From: a bacterium
GTDB taxonomy: Bacteria > Verrucomicrobiota > Verrucomicrobiia > Limisphaerales > UBA8199
DNA length: 32,442 nucleotides
Direction of reading: 5' to 3'
Assembly (NCBI GenBank): GCA_021784555.1
Contig: JAJYHY010000049.1
Span: 1-32,442, forward strand
Within the stretch, counting starts at the first letter, position 1. Each line of letters opens with the position of its first letter. Position numbers and translations under genes: made by a program. Below, in pieces: positions 23,123 through 32,442 of the stretch. Below the pieces are notes generated by a model. It made no database searches and was not told where the DNA came from. It saw only the letters and a list, made by a program, of their open reading frames with translations.

Positions 23123-23571
23123 TCACTTCTTGAACAGCAGGTAGAGCACCACGATCACAATCAGCCACCACACCCATGCCGACCAGCCCTCAGCCTTGGT
23201 TGGCTGCGGAGAGGGGGTGGGGCTCGATGGAGCCGCTCGGCGGTGGCTTCGCCAGAACGGAATTTCACGGCGACCGTTGCCTCGGGCAGTTCTATCACCA
23301 TGCTGGCCTTCTTCCGTAGTTGCGGCGAGCGGGTTCGCTTGGCGGTTCGCGCCTGGCGGACCGTCAATCCCCCGTTTTGGGCCTGCCGCCAGAGGCTTTG
23401 CTGCCCGGCGGGATCGTTTTGCTTCGCGATTTCCAGTAAGACCGACTTGGTGGCGTGTTCAGACGTCTGAACAACGGCCAGCAAGCCGGGTTCCAGGTCG
23501 AGAATCCGCAGGCTTTGGTTGATAGCAGCCACGGACTTCCCCACCCTCGCGGGCAGGTCACGCCGGGCCAA
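23123..23571 (-). pseudogene. ParB-family remnant with frame-shifted membrane tail
   Basis: The frame 23571-23161 reads ARVGKSVAAINQSLRILDL ... KSVLLEIAK ... LTVRQARTAKR, then ATVAVKFRSGEAT. This is the helix-turn-helix and following part of ParB/Spo0J-like proteins. The N-terminal ParB catalytic domain is missing because a stop lies just upstream. At the other end, the minus-one frame over 23203-23123 encodes WSAWVWWLIVIVVLYLLFKK and a stop, a clear C-terminal membrane helix after a Ser/Pro-rich linker. The two frames join around a C-rich run (near 23205-23220). I read this as a decayed or frameshifted gene for a membrane-tethered ParB-like protein. A sequencing error in the C run could explain the frame change but not the missing N-terminus. 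Confidence 0.55.
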
Positions 23572-23726: not shown

Positions 23727-25967
23727 TCAAGGCTTGCCGTGGCAAACTGTCTTGCGTTGATGGGTGTTGGGCATTGAATCAGCGATGTGGGCGAGCTCTA
23801 CGCGGACGATGGCAGCCAGGAGATTTTCCTGGTTCGATGAGTGTTCAGCCTCCCCGTTTTGGAGGACTCCCGTGAATGTCTTGGGGACCAGGAGCGCGCT
23901 CCGGATCCGGTTGGGGTGCGACCAGTACTCGCGGAGGGCAATGTTTTGCATGAAAACCAGGGGGTTGCCGGCGAAGGGGCTGTGGTTTTCGCCGTTCCGG
24001 GACACGAATGCCGGCCAACTGAGAGTATCGTCAGTAGCATCGAGAAACTCGCTCAGGCGCATGCGTCGGAAGCGTATCCGACAGGACTCTTTCGCCAGAG
24101 CTTCGAAGCCCTCGGACAGCGATTCCGGCGCTTGGTCTCCTCGCAGTACTCTCGGCCCCAGATCAGCGAGGAGCTGTCTGGCCTCAGCCCGGAGTTTGCC
24201 CAATCCTGCCACCTCTTGTATTCGGGTCTGGAGGATCGCGAGTTGATGCTCGTCCCACGGCACCTGGGCGATTGGCTTTGAGCGGTGGTACGGCAGCAAT
24301 CCTGTTCCATGATCCTCAAGAACCATCGCGGCTTCTCGGATCCGCCTAAGTCTGCCTTGCATTTTTTCGAGTTCGGCCAAGGCGGCGTTCATCTCGGCTG
24401 AGATGCACTGGCGCACAAGAGCGTTCAGGCTCGCCCTCAACTCGCGCTGAACCTCATCAGCCAAGTGTCGGGCCGCGTTTCTGGCGACGCGCCAGGCACG
24501 ATGATGGCGCCACGCCAGGTGAGCCGAGGCGGCCATGGCCCCAAGTGCGGAAACGCAGTAGAAGGCCGTCTGAAATCGCAAATGCAGAACGCGTACCAAC
24601 ACCGCGAGAGCCGCAAACGGGGCAAAGCGTAAGAGCGCACTCATGGCCAAGCGCGCTGCCGATGGGACATTGGAGACTGCTTGTTCGAGCTCAGCAGACC
24701 TTCGATCCACTGAATCACCCGAATTGACCTGGGGAGCATCGTCTGTCCAATACAAGGTCGCGAGGCCGTCTTTGATTTCCTGGCAGATGCCCTCGGCGGC
24801 GGAAATGCCCTCCTGAACCAGTGCCTCGACGGCTTGGTCAATTGCGTCCCCCATCTCGGCAACGCGCGCCTCGGTCAGGGCAGCCTTGATGCGTGAACCG
24901 ACGCAGGGTACGGTCGCGCTCGCCAGGAAATTGCGCGCGGTTTGAATCAGTTGCGGCCATTCCCGGAAAGACTGGTTGCCGACCATTGCCGGCAAGGCGG
25001 CCCCGTTGAAATCGAAGCCCAGCGCGTAGTTTTTTCCTCGTAGAGCGGGTGTGATAGACGGCGGTTGGTCCTGGCCAAAGACCCTCGTTACAACGCCGTC
25101 CGAGTTCAGATTCAACCCGGCCAGGACCTCCCGGGGGGAGCGAATGCACCTCGGTTTTCGTCCGTTTTCTTTCTGCGGCGCGAGCAAGTGTTGCTCCATC
25201 AGTTCAGAGGCAACCGAGGCTTTTAGACTGTCCGCCGCGGCGTCTGGGTCGTAGAGTGCGCCCTTGATCCCAATCGCGTGAAGTGTGATGGACTGACCGT
25301 CGTCCGTGTCAGTCAGGATTCGGGGCGCTCCCTTCCGTGCAATCACGAGGTCCGCGAAGAGCGCAACCGCTATCGCCTCGGCCAACTCACGGCGTGCCAC
25401 GGGCCGTCCGTCGCTCAGTTCCGGGCAGGCGCAATAGAGGACAACCGGCTTGGGAGCCAGCGCCGCGAATTCCCGGATCCAGGCGTGAAACTGTGTTTCG
25501 TCCGCATCAAACGGCATCTCATGCTCCCCTGCCAGAAAGAAGATAAGGAAGCGCGAGTATGCGTCCGCCTCCTTTGCGAGTTGCGCGACGAGAACTTGGC
25601 GGAGACTGTCGTCCAACAGGTGCCTTGCCCCCAGAACAGCCGCGCATTGGGGCGCAGCCCTTCCCTCGAGATCGGTCGGGTAGAAGGGCACCCCCCTGGA
25701 GAGTTCAATCCCGGTCCACTGCTCGATCTTTCGATCGCCTTCAACAGCCGCGCCAAGGGCTTGAGGCCAGGCGGCGTCTTTCACTGGGGCAAACCGAAGC
25801 GCACCGGAAAGAGGCGGAGTCGCCCCCGCTAAAAGGCTCTCGAAGAAGCGGGCGATCTCTTCGCAAGCCTGCTGGCCGGCCTCGTAGAGAAGCATGGCGC
25901 AGGCAATGGCCGGGCGATGCTGCTCAAGCGGATCCAGGATTCGGCGATTCTCGGTAGATGCGTTCAT
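23727..25967 (-). CDS. membrane-associated hypothetical protein of the tubulin-like/vWA operon (746 aa)
   Basis: I do not recognise the family. About 435 N-terminal residues are soluble-looking, with alternating beta (FLIFFLAGEHE, PVVLYCACPE, ADLVIARKGAPRIL) and helical parts. They are followed by two hydrophobic helices (about 439-461 and 465-485) with the basic segment AWRHHRAWR after the second. This predicts a membrane hairpin with both ends in the cytoplasm. A coiled coil follows (RELRASLNALVRQC ... ALAELEKMQGRLRRIRE), then a C-terminal domain. There is no P-loop or other nucleotide motif. It begins 41 bp after the tubulin-like gene. A TTG at 25988 is an alternative start. It could be the membrane anchor that links the tubulin-like protein to the envelope. 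Confidence 0.75.
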   Translation of the reverse strand: MNASTENRRILDPLEQHRPAIACAMLLYEAGQQACEEIARFFESLLAGATPPLSGALRFAPVKDAAWPQALGAAVEGDRKIEQWTGIELSRGVPFYPTDLEGRAAPQCAAVLGARHLLDDSLRQVLVAQLAKEADAYSRFLIFFLAGEHEMPFDADETQFHAWIREFAALAPKPVVLYCACPELSDGRPVARRELAEAIAVALFADLVIARKGAPRILTDTDDGQSITLHAIGIKGALYDPDAAADSLKASVASELMEQHLLAPQKENGRKPRCIRSPREVLAGLNLNSDGVVTRVFGQDQPPSITPALRGKNYALGFDFNGAALPAMVGNQSFREWPQLIQTARNFLASATVPCVGSRIKAALTEARVAEMGDAIDQAVEALVQEGISAAEGICQEIKDGLATLYWTDDAPQVNSGDSVDRRSAELEQAVSNVPSAARLAMSALLRFAPFAALAVLVRVLHLRFQTAFYCVSALGAMAASAHLAWRHHRAWRVARNAARHLADEVQRELRASLNALVRQCISAEMNAALAELEKMQGRLRRIREAAMVLEDHGTGLLPYHRSKPIAQVPWDEHQLAILQTRIQEVAGLGKLRAEARQLLADLGPRVLRGDQAPESLSEGFEALAKESCRIRFRRMRLSEFLDATDDTLSWPAFVSRNGENHSPFAGNPLVFMQNIALREYWSHPNRIRSALLVPKTFTGVLQNGEAEHSSNQENLLAAIVRVELAHIADSMPNTHQRKTVCHGKP

Positions 25968-26008
25968 GGTGATTTGCTTGTGATTCAATCTCCCTGTGAA
26001 AAGCCCCT

Positions 26009-29000
26009 TTAGCGATTGGCCCGCAGGTTCTCGACCTCACGGCGGATCCACACGAGCTCGCGCCGAATTTGGTTGTAGAGGTCGTCCGATGGTTTGAGGC
26101 TCCTGGCAACCTCGGCGGCGTAGGATTCCAGGTCGCGGGCGACCACCACGTTCCCAGAGGCCGTGCAGAGGGCCTTGTGAAACTCCCGGACCAGACGGAC
26201 GGACTTTTGGGATCGCACGAACTCCTTGAGGGCCGCCGGGCGACCGGATTGCTCGCTGAGTTTTAGTGTCCGGTCCGGTTGAGGGGCTTGCCCAAAAGTG
26301 AGCTTTCCATGACCCGTCAGATGCTGGAATGAACCCATGTCGCTCCTGAGCGCACCACCTTGGAACGGGATGCAGTCCCAAAAAGACGTCACCGGGAGCT
26401 CAAATACTTCGGTTTTCTCGTCCTTCGTGAGGTTCAGGTAATACCAGGAGCCACGTCGGGCAATGACGCCGTACGCTGAGCCGAGAGCGAATTCCAACTC
26501 GCCATCAGATTCGGGGTCCGGGATCGCCAAGGGCGGCATAGCGTCCACCACAGCCGGGTCGAAAATATGGATCGGATGGGCTCCGCTACGCATCCAGGTT
26601 TCATAGCTCTGGCGGTACTTTTTCCACACGGTTAAGTAAGTCGGCAGTCCGCCATGTGAGCGGCGGAGCACGTAAATGCGGTGCGGGTCGCAAGTGGGCA
26701 CGAAATCCAGCCTGGCCAGATAGCGCGGGTCCTGGTTGACATTTGCCTGGATGTTCCGGGTGATTTCCCCGAGATGCCCGGCGGCTAACTCGGCAAAGCC
26801 CTCGGGTATCCCAACCACAAGGCTGTCCGAGAACGTCATTCCGGCCACGCCGATTTCCGCCTGCCACATTGGGCGGCAGGCCTGCAAGGCTTCCTCGAAC
26901 CGGGCCTGGGTCACCCGCGCCAGGTCGCCGCCGTGATCCAACTGAAATTTGAGCACGTCTGAGATGCTCAGTTTGTCAATCTGGTGAGCGAAGTGCTCCA
27001 ACGCGTACGCGGTAAGGCGGTTGCACAGTTGGGAAGCGGAGTCGCCATCCAAGAGCGCCATGGGTTGCGCACCAGCCGCTTCCGCGCCCTTCAGAAACTC
27101 CGGGGTGGAGAGTCGATGTTCAGCGTAGAACGACTCCAGGAACTCGGGGCTGACAACGTCGATTTCGCCGCGAGGGGCGACGTTCGCGGTCGTTAGAGCC
27201 GTTTTCTGGTCCTGCGAATTCCGGAGGGCCTCCGTGTCCAATCGGGCCGTACGCGTTTCGAGGTGTTCAATGGCCTCCGAGAATCTAGCGGAGAGGCGGT
27301 TGCTCGCCTCCCGGACCGCGGAGAGAATCATGGCCGACTGTAACTTCGCCGCGGCATCAACGTCGGCCGATACCTGGCTTCGGAACAGCCGGATCACCTC
27401 TTCCTGTGCGCCCGGGTTCCGGCCAAAACCGCTCCAGAACCGGATCAAGGCGCCGGTGATCTGCTCGATTCCCGCGGACGCGTCTGCGGCCTGAGCGCCG
27501 TACTGCTTGGCTTCCTCGGTGATTTGATTCGATGCCGAATCCAACATCTCGCCCAGAACCGTCAGGAACGAGGCCACAGGCCTGAGGCCGTCCGCATCCG
27601 CCATTGCAGCGACTTTGGTCTCGAGCGCGGCACAGTACTCTGACGCCAAGGCCGCGGTCTGTTCCCCCAGGCGTTGCGAAATCCCGGGCAGGCTGGAGTC
27701 TTTCCATGCCTGCTGCGCCTTGGCAAGCGCCGGCACAAAAAGCTTGTTCTTGAGATACCGCGGGCGGGATGGGTCGGCGTCGGCGTAAAGCGGAGCGGTG
27801 ATGCCATCCAATCCGGGTGTGGCCGCCGCTTTCAACCTGGTGGAGACGCACTCGGCGCCACCTTCGGTTCCTTCGTCAAACTGCGCTGCCTTGGCCCACT
27901 CGGTGATCGCGGAGTGGTCAATCGGAGAGTCGCTGCCGAGAAAGTGTTCCTGGATGAGTTCAGAAACGGAGCGGCACGCGAGATGGCTCGTTAACCGTTC
28001 CGCCGGCACAACCAAAGCCGTTGCGCTCAGCGTGCTGTAATTGCGCTTGCGCCCGCTGATTGGGCACACCGACAGACCCGCCACGGTGGCATCGTTGGCC
28101 CCGACAGCCTTAAACTTCCCGCCAATGGTTGTCCCGATGTGGCCAGCGAGATGAAGCGCCACCAGATCGAAGACGTCCTCCATGCTGCCAACGCTTCGCC
28201 CCTCGCTGTCGTACTTGCCGACCAGATAAACGTGGTCGAAGAGTTGTGCGGGCGCCCTTGTCGCCAACTGCCCCATGCGAAGACCGTCGGCGGCCGCTTG
28301 CCCTGTCTGAAAATAGTCTAGTTCGGTGGCGGCTGCGATGCAATTCGCCTCAATGCGCGCTTGCTCCTCGATCTTGCCCTGGAGGACATCCTCGTGGACT
28401 TCGGGCAGCGTCAGAATGGCCGTTATGGAGAGGTCAGAGCCCGCGAACTCCTGCCGAATCATAGCGGCGATATCAATGAACCAACTGGAACCGCTGCCGC
28501 CGTAATTCGAACCGACAATCTGAACCTCCAGCCCACGTTGGAACTTCACCGAATGCGAATCTCGCGTGTTCAACCGTCCCACCAAGGCAGTCCAGCGATG
28601 CTGCAGGGCATCGGCGGCCTGGTGAATCCGGGTTTGAACCAATTTGTGGTTGGCAGCCAGAGCCAGGTAGCCGATTGGGCGAACCTGTCCCGCGCCGGGA
28701 ATTCGACGCTCCGCGATGGTGGCCAGGGATTGCCAGGTCTTGACATCCGACAGGCCCAGCCGGGAGGCCATGGCAGAATGGTACTCGGGGCGGCGAATGA
28801 CGTCCCGGACCGAACGGGTGGGGAGCAGACAGAACTCCGCACTCGTAAAGCCCGGCAGGTCGCCCTGCGGCTCCTGCGAACGCGGGTCCGTGTCGAAAGC
28901 CAGAAGGCTCCAGCACCGGTCCCCGCCGTTGGGGTTGCGGGCCTTCACGCGGCGGAGTATCTCCGTCCCGGTTCCTCCCGGGCCGATGAGAAGGGTGGGG

Positions 29001-29119
29001 CTGACCGATTCGATGTGTTCGTCCTCCTCGTGGTGGTCTGGAAGCACCGAGGTGATTCCGTCGTTGCGTCCGTTGAGGCGGTTGGTTTGCTCTACGGTTT
29101 GTTCGAGTTCGAGTCTCAT
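26009..29119 (-). CDS. large tubulin/FtsZ-superfamily protein (Tubulin_2-like)
   Basis: The 1036-aa protein carries LLIGPGGTGTEILRR (glycine loop 46-53), AFDTDPR (74-80, comparable to the T3 loop) and VGSNYGGSGSSWF (GGSGSS 207-212). The last is the position of the GGGTGT/S signature that contacts GTP phosphates in tubulins. These features fit the tubulin-like family of long bacterial proteins rather than cell-division FtsZ, which is about a third of the length. The C-terminal two thirds are helical plus an unassigned domain. The gene has an AGGA site nine bases before its ATG and lies 27 bp after the vWA gene. Related proteins have been linked by gene context to vWA proteins and predicted membrane remodelling. 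GTP-dependent polymerisation is inferred. Confidence 0.82.
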   Translation of the reverse strand: MRLELEQTVEQTNRLNGRNDGITSVLPDHHEEDEHIESVSPTLLIGPGGTGTEILRRVKARNPNGGDRCWSLLAFDTDPRSQEPQGDLPGFTSAEFCLLPTRSVRDVIRRPEYHSAMASRLGLSDVKTWQSLATIAERRIPGAGQVRPIGYLALAANHKLVQTRIHQAADALQHRWTALVGRLNTRDSHSVKFQRGLEVQIVGSNYGGSGSSWFIDIAAMIRQEFAGSDLSITAILTLPEVHEDVLQGKIEEQARIEANCIAAATELDYFQTGQAAADGLRMGQLATRAPAQLFDHVYLVGKYDSEGRSVGSMEDVFDLVALHLAGHIGTTIGGKFKAVGANDATVAGLSVCPISGRKRNYSTLSATALVVPAERLTSHLACRSVSELIQEHFLGSDSPIDHSAITEWAKAAQFDEGTEGGAECVSTRLKAAATPGLDGITAPLYADADPSRPRYLKNKLFVPALAKAQQAWKDSSLPGISQRLGEQTAALASEYCAALETKVAAMADADGLRPVASFLTVLGEMLDSASNQITEEAKQYGAQAADASAGIEQITGALIRFWSGFGRNPGAQEEVIRLFRSQVSADVDAAAKLQSAMILSAVREASNRLSARFSEAIEHLETRTARLDTEALRNSQDQKTALTTANVAPRGEIDVVSPEFLESFYAEHRLSTPEFLKGAEAAGAQPMALLDGDSASQLCNRLTAYALEHFAHQIDKLSISDVLKFQLDHGGDLARVTQARFEEALQACRPMWQAEIGVAGMTFSDSLVVGIPEGFAELAAGHLGEITRNIQANVNQDPRYLARLDFVPTCDPHRIYVLRRSHGGLPTYLTVWKKYRQSYETWMRSGAHPIHIFDPAVVDAMPPLAIPDPESDGELEFALGSAYGVIARRGSWYYLNLTKDEKTEVFELPVTSFWDCIPFQGGALRSDMGSFQHLTGHGKLTFGQAPQPDRTLKLSEQSGRPAALKEFVRSQKSVRLVREFHKALCTASGNVVVARDLESYAAEVARSLKPSDDLYNQIRRELVWIRREVENLRANR

Positions 29120-29146
29120 TTGTTTTTTCCTTTCAGGTTTTTGGAT

Positions 29147-31327
29147 TTAGGAGTCATAGCGGACAATAATCCCCGGAACTGGCAGCGGCCTTTCCGCGCC
29201 AGGCTGGAGCAAGGTCGTTGCCAGGACGTTCTCGTCGCGCGTCACGTCGAGCGTGTAATTCGCGCGTCGTTTTGTTGCGTCCAGCCGTTTCCGGAGTGTT
29301 AAAATGAGAGACGGTATTGAGTGGTCCGAATCTTCAGAGGGAATCCGGACGGCAAACTCCCCGTCGGTGCCGGTGATTTTGACCGAATGCCACGGGGTGG
29401 TCTTGGGTTCCGCCGGTTTCCAGTGGAGGATTCCCTTGAGTCGATGGTGCCGAGAAGTCCATGCCCTCTGCTCGACGATCGGTCGGGTGCAGAGGAGAAT
29501 GGCGAGCAGCGCGGCGATTCCGATCGTAATCAGCCACCAATTGCGCGCGAGCCAGGACGGCGGTGGCACGACGACAATGGAGTGGGCATTCATGGAATAG
29601 ATGGATGGCGGGAACTGCTTGAATCCTTCCGCCCGCAGAATAGGCGTGTATTTCCCGGCTGATTTGTACCGGTGAGTGCAATCCACAAAATTTGTTGCCG
29701 TGAATTCGGGCGAGCCGTCGCCGAAATCGAGGACGAACCGGCGGATGTTTCCCTCGGAGCGGTTCTCGAACGTGACAGTCAGCGGCAGAATCCCCTTATC
29801 CCGGCTCACCTGGAACCGGGCTGTGGGCGGGGCAAGCGGCGGCTTGGGTGGGTGCATGACCTGGATCCGCTGAACGGCCTCATCACGTCCACCTGGGCCG
29901 GAGACGGTCAGGCGAACCAGGTATGTCCCAGGGCTTTTGAAGGTATGCACCACCGCATGACTTCGGGCGGCAGCACCAGGCGGCGCGGCAGAAGTTATGG
30001 CACTCTTCATATCCGAAAACTGCCATTCGAGCCGTTCTATCACCCCACTCGACTGGCTAATGAACCGCACCGGCTTGCCTGCCACCGGATGGTCAAAGCC
30101 AAGCACGAATCCCGCCTTCGGAGCAGGCAGGGGCAATACTCGAACGGGGGCGGTGAACGAGGTTGCCTTTCCGTTCACGCCATCGGTCGTGAGAGTGACC
30201 GGATAGGTTCCCGCCCGCGCATAGGCATGGCTGGGCTCATGGTTCGTGGATCGGTTCCCGTCGCCGAAATCCCACACGAAACCCACGGCCGGGCCGGTGG
30301 TTTCATTACGAAACAAGACTGAGTCGCCAGGACGGAGTTCCTTCGGGAACACATCGAACTTCGGTGTCACGGCTGGAACACCCGAAACAACGAGGGTCTT
30401 TTCAACAGACCGGCTCCGCCCGTCCGGGCTTCGGATTGTGAGGCGAACCCGGTATGCACCTTGCGCAAAACGCAGCACCGGCGCCTTTTCCTCGCTATCG
30501 CCTCCGGTGCCAAAATCCCAGGCATAACGTGTGATCATCCCGCTGGAACGGTCCACGAACTGTACTTCCTCCTCGCTGTCCGGGTGCTCTGGCACCCAGG
30601 AAAAGCTAGCAATCAACGGCGCGAGGTCTTCCGGTCTCAGGCTGGGCGTTGCCTGGACGCCGTATGTCGCGAAAAGCTTCCGAACTTCGGCTGAGAGGCT
30701 GAACCCCAAGGTCATGTAGCTGACCTGGACCGCGCCGTTGCTTCCACGAAGCAAATAGCGGTGTTTCTTCAGGATGTTTGCCAATTGAGGATGCGAGGGG
30801 TCGTTATCCTCGCCGTCGGTATAAATCACCACCCTGACGGAGGCGATTTGCTTTGACGATGTCAGCTCGTTTTCGGCGAGGCTCAGGACGTAATCGAGCC
30901 CGCGCCAAGCGTAAGTCTTCCTCCCTACCGCCTGGAGCGAGTCGAAGTACTGCCGCAGGGCAGCCCGTTGGGTGTCCCCGAGTGAATCAAAGCGAGGCCC
31001 CGGTCTCGGTGGCCCTTCGTCGAAAGTAAAGACCCTGACGGCCGCTTCGGTCGGCAGGTTCCCGCATAATTGCGCCAGTTCGCGTTTTACCTCCGCAATC
31101 TTCGACTGTTTCCACGCGATAGGGACTTGCGGCGGCCTCGGCGCCTCGCTCATGGAGGCGGAGGTATCAATGAGGAGGTAATAGGCGTCAACCACCTTGT
31201 CGGTGTTGACGCCACCGGCGCTAGCCTTCGAAGCCGCTAGGCTGAGAAGGGCGGCGAGAAGGGTAAGGACGGTTGGTAGCCGTGTGGAACGGTCCTTGGG
31301 GCAGACGAGTTGGTTTTTCATAGTCAT
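29147..31327 (-). CDS. membrane-anchored vWA protein with four PKD domains
   Basis: Numbering is from ATG 31327 (726 aa). A signal sequence (LPTVLTLLAALLSLAASKASA) precedes a von Willebrand factor A domain. The metal site is DTSAS (54-58), and TDGEDN (170-175) is near the usual acidic position. Four PKD-type beta sandwiches follow, seen from WDFG/EWQF/LDFGDG with a downstream 'YxVxLT' strand, at roughly 245-315, 320-398, 402-490 and 502-586. A membrane helix (NWWLITIGIAALLAILLC, about 596-613) leads to a C-terminal domain of about 110 residues, predicted cytoplasmic. The protein would display adhesion domains outside the membrane and pair with the tubulin-like protein inside. Alternative starts are GTG 31333 and ATG 31321. 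Confidence 0.88.
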   Translation of the reverse strand: MTMKNQLVCPKDRSTRLPTVLTLLAALLSLAASKASAGGVNTDKVVDAYYLLIDTSASMSEAPRPPQVPIAWKQSKIAEVKRELAQLCGNLPTEAAVRVFTFDEGPPRPGPRFDSLGDTQRAALRQYFDSLQAVGRKTYAWRGLDYVLSLAENELTSSKQIASVRVVIYTDGEDNDPSHPQLANILKKHRYLLRGSNGAVQVSYMTLGFSLSAEVRKLFATYGVQATPSLRPEDLAPLIASFSWVPEHPDSEEEVQFVDRSSGMITRYAWDFGTGGDSEEKAPVLRFAQGAYRVRLTIRSPDGRSRSVEKTLVVSGVPAVTPKFDVFPKELRPGDSVLFRNETTGPAVGFVWDFGDGNRSTNHEPSHAYARAGTYPVTLTTDGVNGKATSFTAPVRVLPLPAPKAGFVLGFDHPVAGKPVRFISQSSGVIERLEWQFSDMKSAITSAAPPGAAARSHAVVHTFKSPGTYLVRLTVSGPGGRDEAVQRIQVMHPPKPPLAPPTARFQVSRDKGILPLTVTFENRSEGNIRRFVLDFGDGSPEFTATNFVDCTHRYKSAGKYTPILRAEGFKQFPPSIYSMNAHSIVVVPPPSWLARNWWLITIGIAALLAILLCTRPIVEQRAWTSRHHRLKGILHWKPAEPKTTPWHSVKITGTDGEFAVRIPSEDSDHSIPSLILTLRKRLDATKRRANYTLDVTRDENVLATTLLQPGAERPLPVPGIIVRYDS

Positions 31328-31596
31328 GAGCACGGACGGTTTTTGAGCTGTGTGGATTTGGAGTCACAGGGAAATGCAACCCACAAGGCGCGAAGGCTGG
31401 ATTCTCGCCCGGAATGTTCCGATCGACATGCTTTGCGCGTCCTATAAATCTCGTCGCCAACGATTGAAGCCGGCACTGGCTTGTGGGATGCGTATGAATT
31501 TTGACCATTGCCGGGGGCTAAGCCTCCGCGTAGCCGGAACCTCCCCATGCCGCAGGCGTTCAATCCCCATCGAATCGAGAATCCCATCCTTCGCTT
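31328..31596. other. divergent intergenic region
   Basis: About 270 bp separate the vWA gene from the plus-strand partial gene, so promoters for both directions must lie here or in the flanks. I see TATAAAT at 31443-31449 and TTGACC at 31501-31506 on the plus strand, without well-spaced partners. GGCTAAGCC at about 31516-31524 is a short palindrome. No RNA gene is recognised. Confidence 0.35.
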
Positions 31597-32442
31597 ATGA
31601 GTTACACCGAGCGCATCTCGCATCACGAGTTAGAGCCACCCACAAAGGCCTCGACCGAAGAAGCCTACCTTGAAGGAGTCAAGTCAGGGCGCCACTGCGA
31701 GCGGATCTCCGCACCACCCTGGCCGGATAACCTCGATGAGGCGGCGGAGGACTCAAACCACGAATTGCCGGAGCGAGAGATTTACCGCCTGACCGAGAAT
31801 AGAGAGCGTAACACGTGGACGGCGGCGTTCGCCTTCGAATTGGCTGGCGTGATCTGGAACGGCTATACGCGCAGAATTGCGGAAGCTGGGATGGGCGAGA
31901 CCGCGAATGGGAATCGTCTGCTCTCGCGCCTTCTTCCCGGGTTCACCCCGAGTACAGCAGTGGACTTCATTTTCAGGGGCGGCGCGGGCCTGAGGTTCGG
32001 GTGCTCCGTTCACGGATTGGTCGAGGAATCGTCGTCCGCCGAAGAAGCTCTATCCACCGCCAAAGGCCTTCGGCAGGGCCTGCAAGTGGCATTGGCGGGT
32101 GAACCTGGTTTGATGTTTCTTCCAAAAGGGGTTCCCGCGAGGCAAGTGCTCCGACCGTCAGCCATGAACGCTCGCCTCGCTCCTCAATCAGGCGATGCGC
32201 TATGGCGCTCGCACGTGCTTCCTCGAAGCATTTTGTTCCCGGTGGCGCGGATTGAGCCTCTGGGGTTTGGCCCCACGAAGCACGATACGGACCCGGTCGA
32301 GGCATCGATCGAGCTCTCCCTGCCCTTCGGGGGAAAAAGGTGCTTCAGGTCGCTCGCCGAATCATTACTCCTGAGCCCCAGTCCCGTTTTATTCTGCCTC
32401 AGGTTCAAACCCTTCGCCCTGGACGAACAAACGCGGGCAACG
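31597..32442 (+). CDS. partial gene running off the window; possible N-terminus of a HerA/VirB4-like ATPase
   Basis: From ATG 31597 a reading frame stays open for 282 codons to the window end, with no upstream in-frame start after the stop at 31531. It begins MSYTERISHHELEPPTKAST. A charged N-terminus is followed by TWTAAFAFELAGVIWNGYTRR, AVDFIFRGGAGLRFGCSVHG, SSAEEALSTAKGLRQGLQVAL and LLSPSPVLFCLRFKPFALDEQ. This alternation of an aromatic beta strand with an 'EEA..A..L' helix resembles the N-terminal domains of some large HerA/VirB4-type ATPases, but no P-loop has been reached, so the assignment is tentative. There is no obvious ribosome binding site. It is divergent from the vWA operon and may belong to the same module. 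Confidence 0.6.
   Translation, partial: MSYTERISHHELEPPTKASTEEAYLEGVKSGRHCERISAPPWPDNLDEAAEDSNHELPEREIYRLTENRERNTWTAAFAFELAGVIWNGYTRRIAEAGMGETANGNRLLSRLLPGFTPSTAVDFIFRGGAGLRFGCSVHGLVEESSSAEEALSTAKGLRQGLQVALAGEPGLMFLPKGVPARQVLRPSAMNARLAPQSGDALWRSHVLPRSILFPVARIEPLGFGPTKHDTDPVEASIELSLPFGGKRCFRSLAESLLLSPSPVLFCLRFKPFALDEQTRAT

Follow-up and report, generated by a model that had tools for sequence, protein, structure and literature searches.

What does a tubulin-like protein do when it is encoded between a predicted outward-facing protein and a putative membrane hairpin protein, and is such a trio linked in function to the defence genes beside it? This question is raised by a stretch of 32,442 nucleotides from a Verrucomicrobial genome (hereafter the window), which is a whole contig of an incomplete 8.8 Mb assembly with 658 contigs. 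Membrane remodelling was predicted for tubulins of the FtsZl1 type in 2010, and we found no experimental test of this gene arrangement, or of any FtsZl1 tubulin, in the literature that we searched. Our analysis confirmed the presence of the trio, which is an FtsZl1-type (Tubulin_2) operon. We suggest, with a probability of about 0.5, that it forms a switch that spans the inner membrane, most likely in biological conflict or in an envelope-stress response and not in routine division. Should the trio prove to be a defence module, bacterial immunity would involve a member of the tubulin family with an outward-facing sensor.

Three co-directed genes form an FtsZl1-type operon

The trio begins with the vWA-PKD gene (29147 to 31333, minus strand), which encodes 728 aa from a GTG start and has an alternative ATG at 31327. 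It is followed by the tubulin-like gene (26009 to 29119, minus strand; 1036 aa) and by a third gene (23727 to 25967, minus strand) that encodes 746 aa from an ATG at 25967, in a frame that reaches a TTG at 25988 (753 aa). The gap ahead of the tubulin gene on this strand comprises 27 bases (29120 to 29146) with an AAAGGAA-type ribosome-binding site, and the gap from the tubulin gene to the third gene comprises 41 bases when counted to the ATG at 25967. Three co-directed minus-strand genes with such short gaps bear out the original prediction of one operon. None of the trio proteins matched a PADLOC model.

The assignment of the 1036-aa protein to the tubulin superfamily held in a family check, in which residues 43–388 matched Pfam Tubulin_2 (PF13809; E=5.8e-37) with 128 bits, well over the curated cut-off of 27. 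This N-terminal domain of nucleotide-binding type is followed by a long C-terminal region, and the protein is the one Tubulin_2 copy found in the source genome. Makarova and Koonin 2010 (PMC2875224) described Tubulin_2 under the name FtsZl1, an equivalence given in PMC9871819. The window protein therefore belongs to FtsZl1, and the published precedent of predicted membrane remodelling by tubulin-like and vWA proteins that had been named for this locus is correct. The T1 loop is intact (GPGGTG) and the T4 loop is eroded, with GGSGSS at the position where most of the 38 proteins compared have GGTGSG. Read as YGGSGSS against the signature GGGTG(S/T)G, the threonine and the last glycine have been replaced by serine, so that nucleotide hydrolysis may be weak. 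In a tree of tubulin domains, the window protein falls into an unresolved group with those of Thermales, Deinococcus, Azospirillum, and most other vWA-linked members, and kinship to the Thermales operons described below thus rests on vWA and tubulin searches. Close relatives of the tubulin were found at one locus in GTDB genome contigs and not at all in viral contigs or in phages.

For the vWA protein, Pfam reported four PKD stretches (PKD_4, E=1.1e-41) and a VWA domain (E=2.7e-6) whose core MIDAS motif is intact in our alignment, i.e., D-T-S-A-S opening the domain, a later T, and TDGED. Transmembrane (TM) segments are predicted at residues 19–37 (N-terminal signal/TM) and 602–620 (C-terminal), the latter followed by a tail of about 110 aa. 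This predicted topology, together with the conserved MIDAS core, agrees with the earlier view of an outward-facing PKD array with a metal-site vWA domain.

The third protein belongs to no family in Pfam, NCBIfam, or PADLOC, and no SLATT-type hairpin was matched in it by Pfam. In the 746-aa form, hydropathy analysis detects a strong first segment (2.04, residues 440–458) and a weak second one (1.28, residues 467–485), which makes the membrane hairpin of this coiled-coil protein (residues 440–485) probable rather than certain.

Pairing with vWA proteins recurs within Verrucomicrobiota

Searches at the level of order, class, and phylum found Tubulin_2 above the family cut-off in 4 of 245, 20 of 384, and 12 of 388 genomes, respectively, and this distribution is patchy, at about 2–9% of genomes when weak matches are counted. 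In four other Verrucomicrobial genomes (L042, L061, L062, and, with a weak vWA match, L063), the gene immediately upstream of Tubulin_2 encodes a vWA-PKD protein, so that a PKD-vWA protein beside a tubulin is not unique to the window. These relatives carry two or three PKD stretches, compared to four in the window. At L043, two vWA genes without PKD lie upstream of the tubulin gene, while our local model detected no vWA gene at the remaining Verrucomicrobial tubulin loci, where the third genes differ as well. No recognisable defence genes were found among the scanned neighbours of the other Verrucomicrobial vWA-tubulin loci, and the genes that are found near these relatives include YidC, an ABC transporter, and envelope-type genes. 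L061 and L041 share genes for a solute-binding protein and an ABC permease near Tubulin_2.

Besides the vWA gene, the layout of the third protein also recurs in related operons. Proteins of 700–900 aa with one hairpin about two thirds along and a charged helical stretch after it are encoded directly 3′ of the tubulin gene in the Verrucomicrobial order-mate L043, in Azospirillum ramasamyi (L078), and in Rhodococcus (L097). By hydropathy, this hairpin pattern was seen once among 47 background proteins from the same loci, all with a length of 600 aa or more. In 16 genomes with a tubulin gene, a sequence search for homologues of the third protein gave no match at E<=0.001, and pairwise comparison with the proteins of the same layout gave similarities not clearly above block-shuffled controls (highest z of 2.6). 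The likeness is therefore one of layout, without demonstrated common descent. Tubulin operons do not always include a hairpin gene, although the layout recurs in these three further lineages. The counter-case named for this locus, in which related operons would lack the vWA gene or the hairpin gene throughout, was borne out for neither gene.

Some relatives outside the phylum lie in defence and conflict settings

A tblastn search with the window tubulin against 72,556 plasmids returned four records, three of which are from Thermales. The vWA domain of the window, searched against the 72,556 plasmids, had only two matches, both to vWA genes of Thermales that adjoin Tubulin_2 and brxL. The gene order on the Thermales plasmids is vWA, Tubulin_2, a protein of 680 aa, and BrxL (L069/L074, L071/L073, and L072; truncated in L081), with BrxL recognised by PADLOC at E=2.7e-105 and preceded by an IS element in Allomeiothermus. 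The Meiothermus trio adjoins HmaB and HmaC and the Allomeiothermus trio adjoins DrmD-, DrmMI-, and DruE-like genes (DISARM/Druantia-like), while in T. thermophilus a truncated tubulin, the third gene, and BrxL adjoin helicase, N-6 methylase, and CRISPR genes. The window shares with these operons the order of vWA, tubulin, and third gene, and its vWA domain is closest to theirs among plasmids. However, their trio is followed by BrxL and that of the window by a ParB-like fragment and an RtcR-like regulator, the Meiothermus vWA protein has no PKD family match, and the Thermales third protein lacks a hairpin and any detectable similarity to that of the window. No PADLOC model matched the Thermales trio proteins that we tested. 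We consider the four-gene Thermales arrangement a candidate for a compact defence module in cultivable strains and, should the trio indeed be such a module, a convenient test case. Defence genes abound on Thermales plasmids, with CRISPR genes near some of these loci, and proximity is therefore weaker evidence there than it appears.

The Rhodococcus operon (L097) has the order vWA, tubulin, hairpin protein, an unknown protein, and GAP1-N2, and it also holds GAP1-M. GAP1-N2 marks predicted conflict systems, among which tubulins with membrane-bound vWA proteins have been placed (Kaur et al. 2020, PMC7159879). The window resembles this theme in having a vWA protein with a TM segment and an inner tail, a Tubulin_2 protein, and a hairpin protein, all ordered as in Rhodococcus. 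Unlike these systems, the window trio lacks GAP1 and DO-GTPase, and its vWA protein carries PKD repeats where theirs have FNIII repeats. GAP1-N2 had no match among the scanned window proteins or in the incomplete source genome, and Pfam detected neither a DO-GTPase nor any other GTPase family in the trio. The tubulins of Deinococcus and of other Azospirillum are found in different settings that are OmpA- or caspase-linked. On a plasmid of Azospirillum sp. TSA2s (L079), Tubulin_2 has three genes of the caspase family and several OmpA genes in its vicinity.

A possible switch across the inner membrane

The GAP1-N2 gene in Rhodococcus and the defence neighbours in Thermales lead us to favour a role in conflict or defence over generic membrane remodelling. 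In the switch that we propose, the vWA-PKD protein would face outward, anchored by its TM helix and with a short tail inside the cell, and its metal site would bind a ligand or an envelope component. The cytosolic tubulin-like protein is expected to bind guanine nucleotide and may change its assembly state upon occupation of the sensor. The third protein would tether this assembly to the membrane via its hairpin and coiled coils, so that all three proteins would be in contact. In a conflict, the trigger might be a phage or another invader.

Ranked second is the possible, though less probable, reading that the trio serves in general membrane remodelling or envelope organisation and has no part in conflict, the nearby defence genes being bystanders in gene-rich islands. 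This follows the published prediction for FtsZl1 by Makarova and Koonin (PMC2875224), who described vWA partners with mostly intact metal sites and membrane-associated neighbours. A reviewer of that work raised the objection that a tubulin in the cytosol would have no contact with partners in the periplasm, and proposed a role in transport or signalling instead. The window is like the FtsZl1 operons in its N-terminal Tubulin_2 domain with a long C-terminal region, its vWA partner with an intact core MIDAS and signal/TM segments, and its membrane-associated, lineage-specific partner. It differs from them in lacking protein kinase, GTPase, and OmpA partners, in the four PKD repeats of its vWA protein, in a hairpin coiled-coil protein as product of the third gene, and in its eroded T4 loop. 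Membrane parts in all hairpin-bearing trios, the transporter and envelope-type neighbours of the Verrucomicrobial relatives, and the OmpA-type operons of Deinococcus would fit a remodelling machine. By contrast, the sole plasmid relatives of the vWA domain adjoin BrxL and lie in Hma or DISARM-like islands, the Rhodococcus operon contains GAP1-N2, and the patchy distribution described above also argues against such a general function.

Returning to the switch for conflict or envelope stress, a wider form of it can be put forward more tentatively still, namely a portable anti-invader module that would convert envelope sensing into the signal of a tubulin-like polymer. It would have been joined repeatedly with differing methylase-helicase defence systems, which are Hma and DISARM/Druantia-like in Thermales and MADS-like in the window, as well as with GAP1-N2 in actinobacteria.

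The defence cassette and flanking genes of the window

The cassette next to the trio (429 to 23032, minus strand) includes genes for an RtcR-like CARF regulator (recognised by PADLOC at E=1.5e-125), an N6 methylase matching MTase_I and MAD2 models, a 1399-aa ATPase, a PbeA-related helicase, a histidine kinase that carries a domain of specificity type, a response-regulator-like protein, and a DUF2130 protein. We rejected its classification as MADS, since the MAD2 match has 147 bits where the cut-off is 720 and no scanned protein reaches a MADS cut-off; the cassette is therefore only MADS-like, and distinct. The 1399-aa ATPase was not found in the other genomes of a 195-genome sample of the phylum or in the plasmids searched, and only weak methylase similarity joins the cassette to one of Thermales. 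A trio beside a methylase-helicase system is thus a repeated pattern in which the particular partner differs. The functional link to defence that the closeness of the cassette had suggested is supported in part, i.e., by the Thermales plasmids and the Rhodococcus operon, but not by the other Verrucomicrobial loci, which lack this cassette.

We rank third, and consider unlikely, a reading in which the trio is the membrane-linked arm of this particular methylase/CARF-regulator cassette. The two are adjacent on the same strand, and the trios of Meiothermus and Allomeiothermus also adjoin methylase-helicase systems. However, between the trio and the RtcR-like gene lie a fragment with a ParB-type HTH (23161 to 23571, minus strand; PF17762, E=3.2e-5; no evident N-terminal domain) and two gaps of about 130–155 bases. 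Among the proteins next to other trios, the only counterparts to those of the cassette are a weakly matching methylase (E=2.5e-4) and, near an Azospirillum tubulin, a sigma-54 regulator, and the cassette ATPase recurs in none of the genomes or plasmids searched. Equally improbable, and compatible with any of the other explanations, is that the third protein is a degenerate second tubulin fold that caps or docks the first, given that its N-termini in several lineages recall the start of Tubulin_2 by a hydrophobic stretch plus helix (e.g., RPSVYIGIGDFGIEAIGEW in L043) but show no significant profile or pairwise similarity, with single-sequence structure predictions of the whole protein and of its N-terminal part (pLDDT of 38.8 and 36.7) being unusable for a fold search.

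Upstream of the vWA gene, a divergent ORF on the plus strand (31597 to 32442, open at the contig end) was considered as a further member of the operon and rejected, as its family is that of a HerA-ATPase cassette also found without tubulin. The ORF is 37–39% identical to a protein of this HerA/DUF87 ATPase cassette, and the homology runs on upstream past an in-frame TAG. The family was seen in G000 and G095 only (146 relatives), about 4 kb from a Tubulin_2 gene, and in G271 the cassette occurs without tubulin. At L093, transporter-type genes lie near the HerA cassette.
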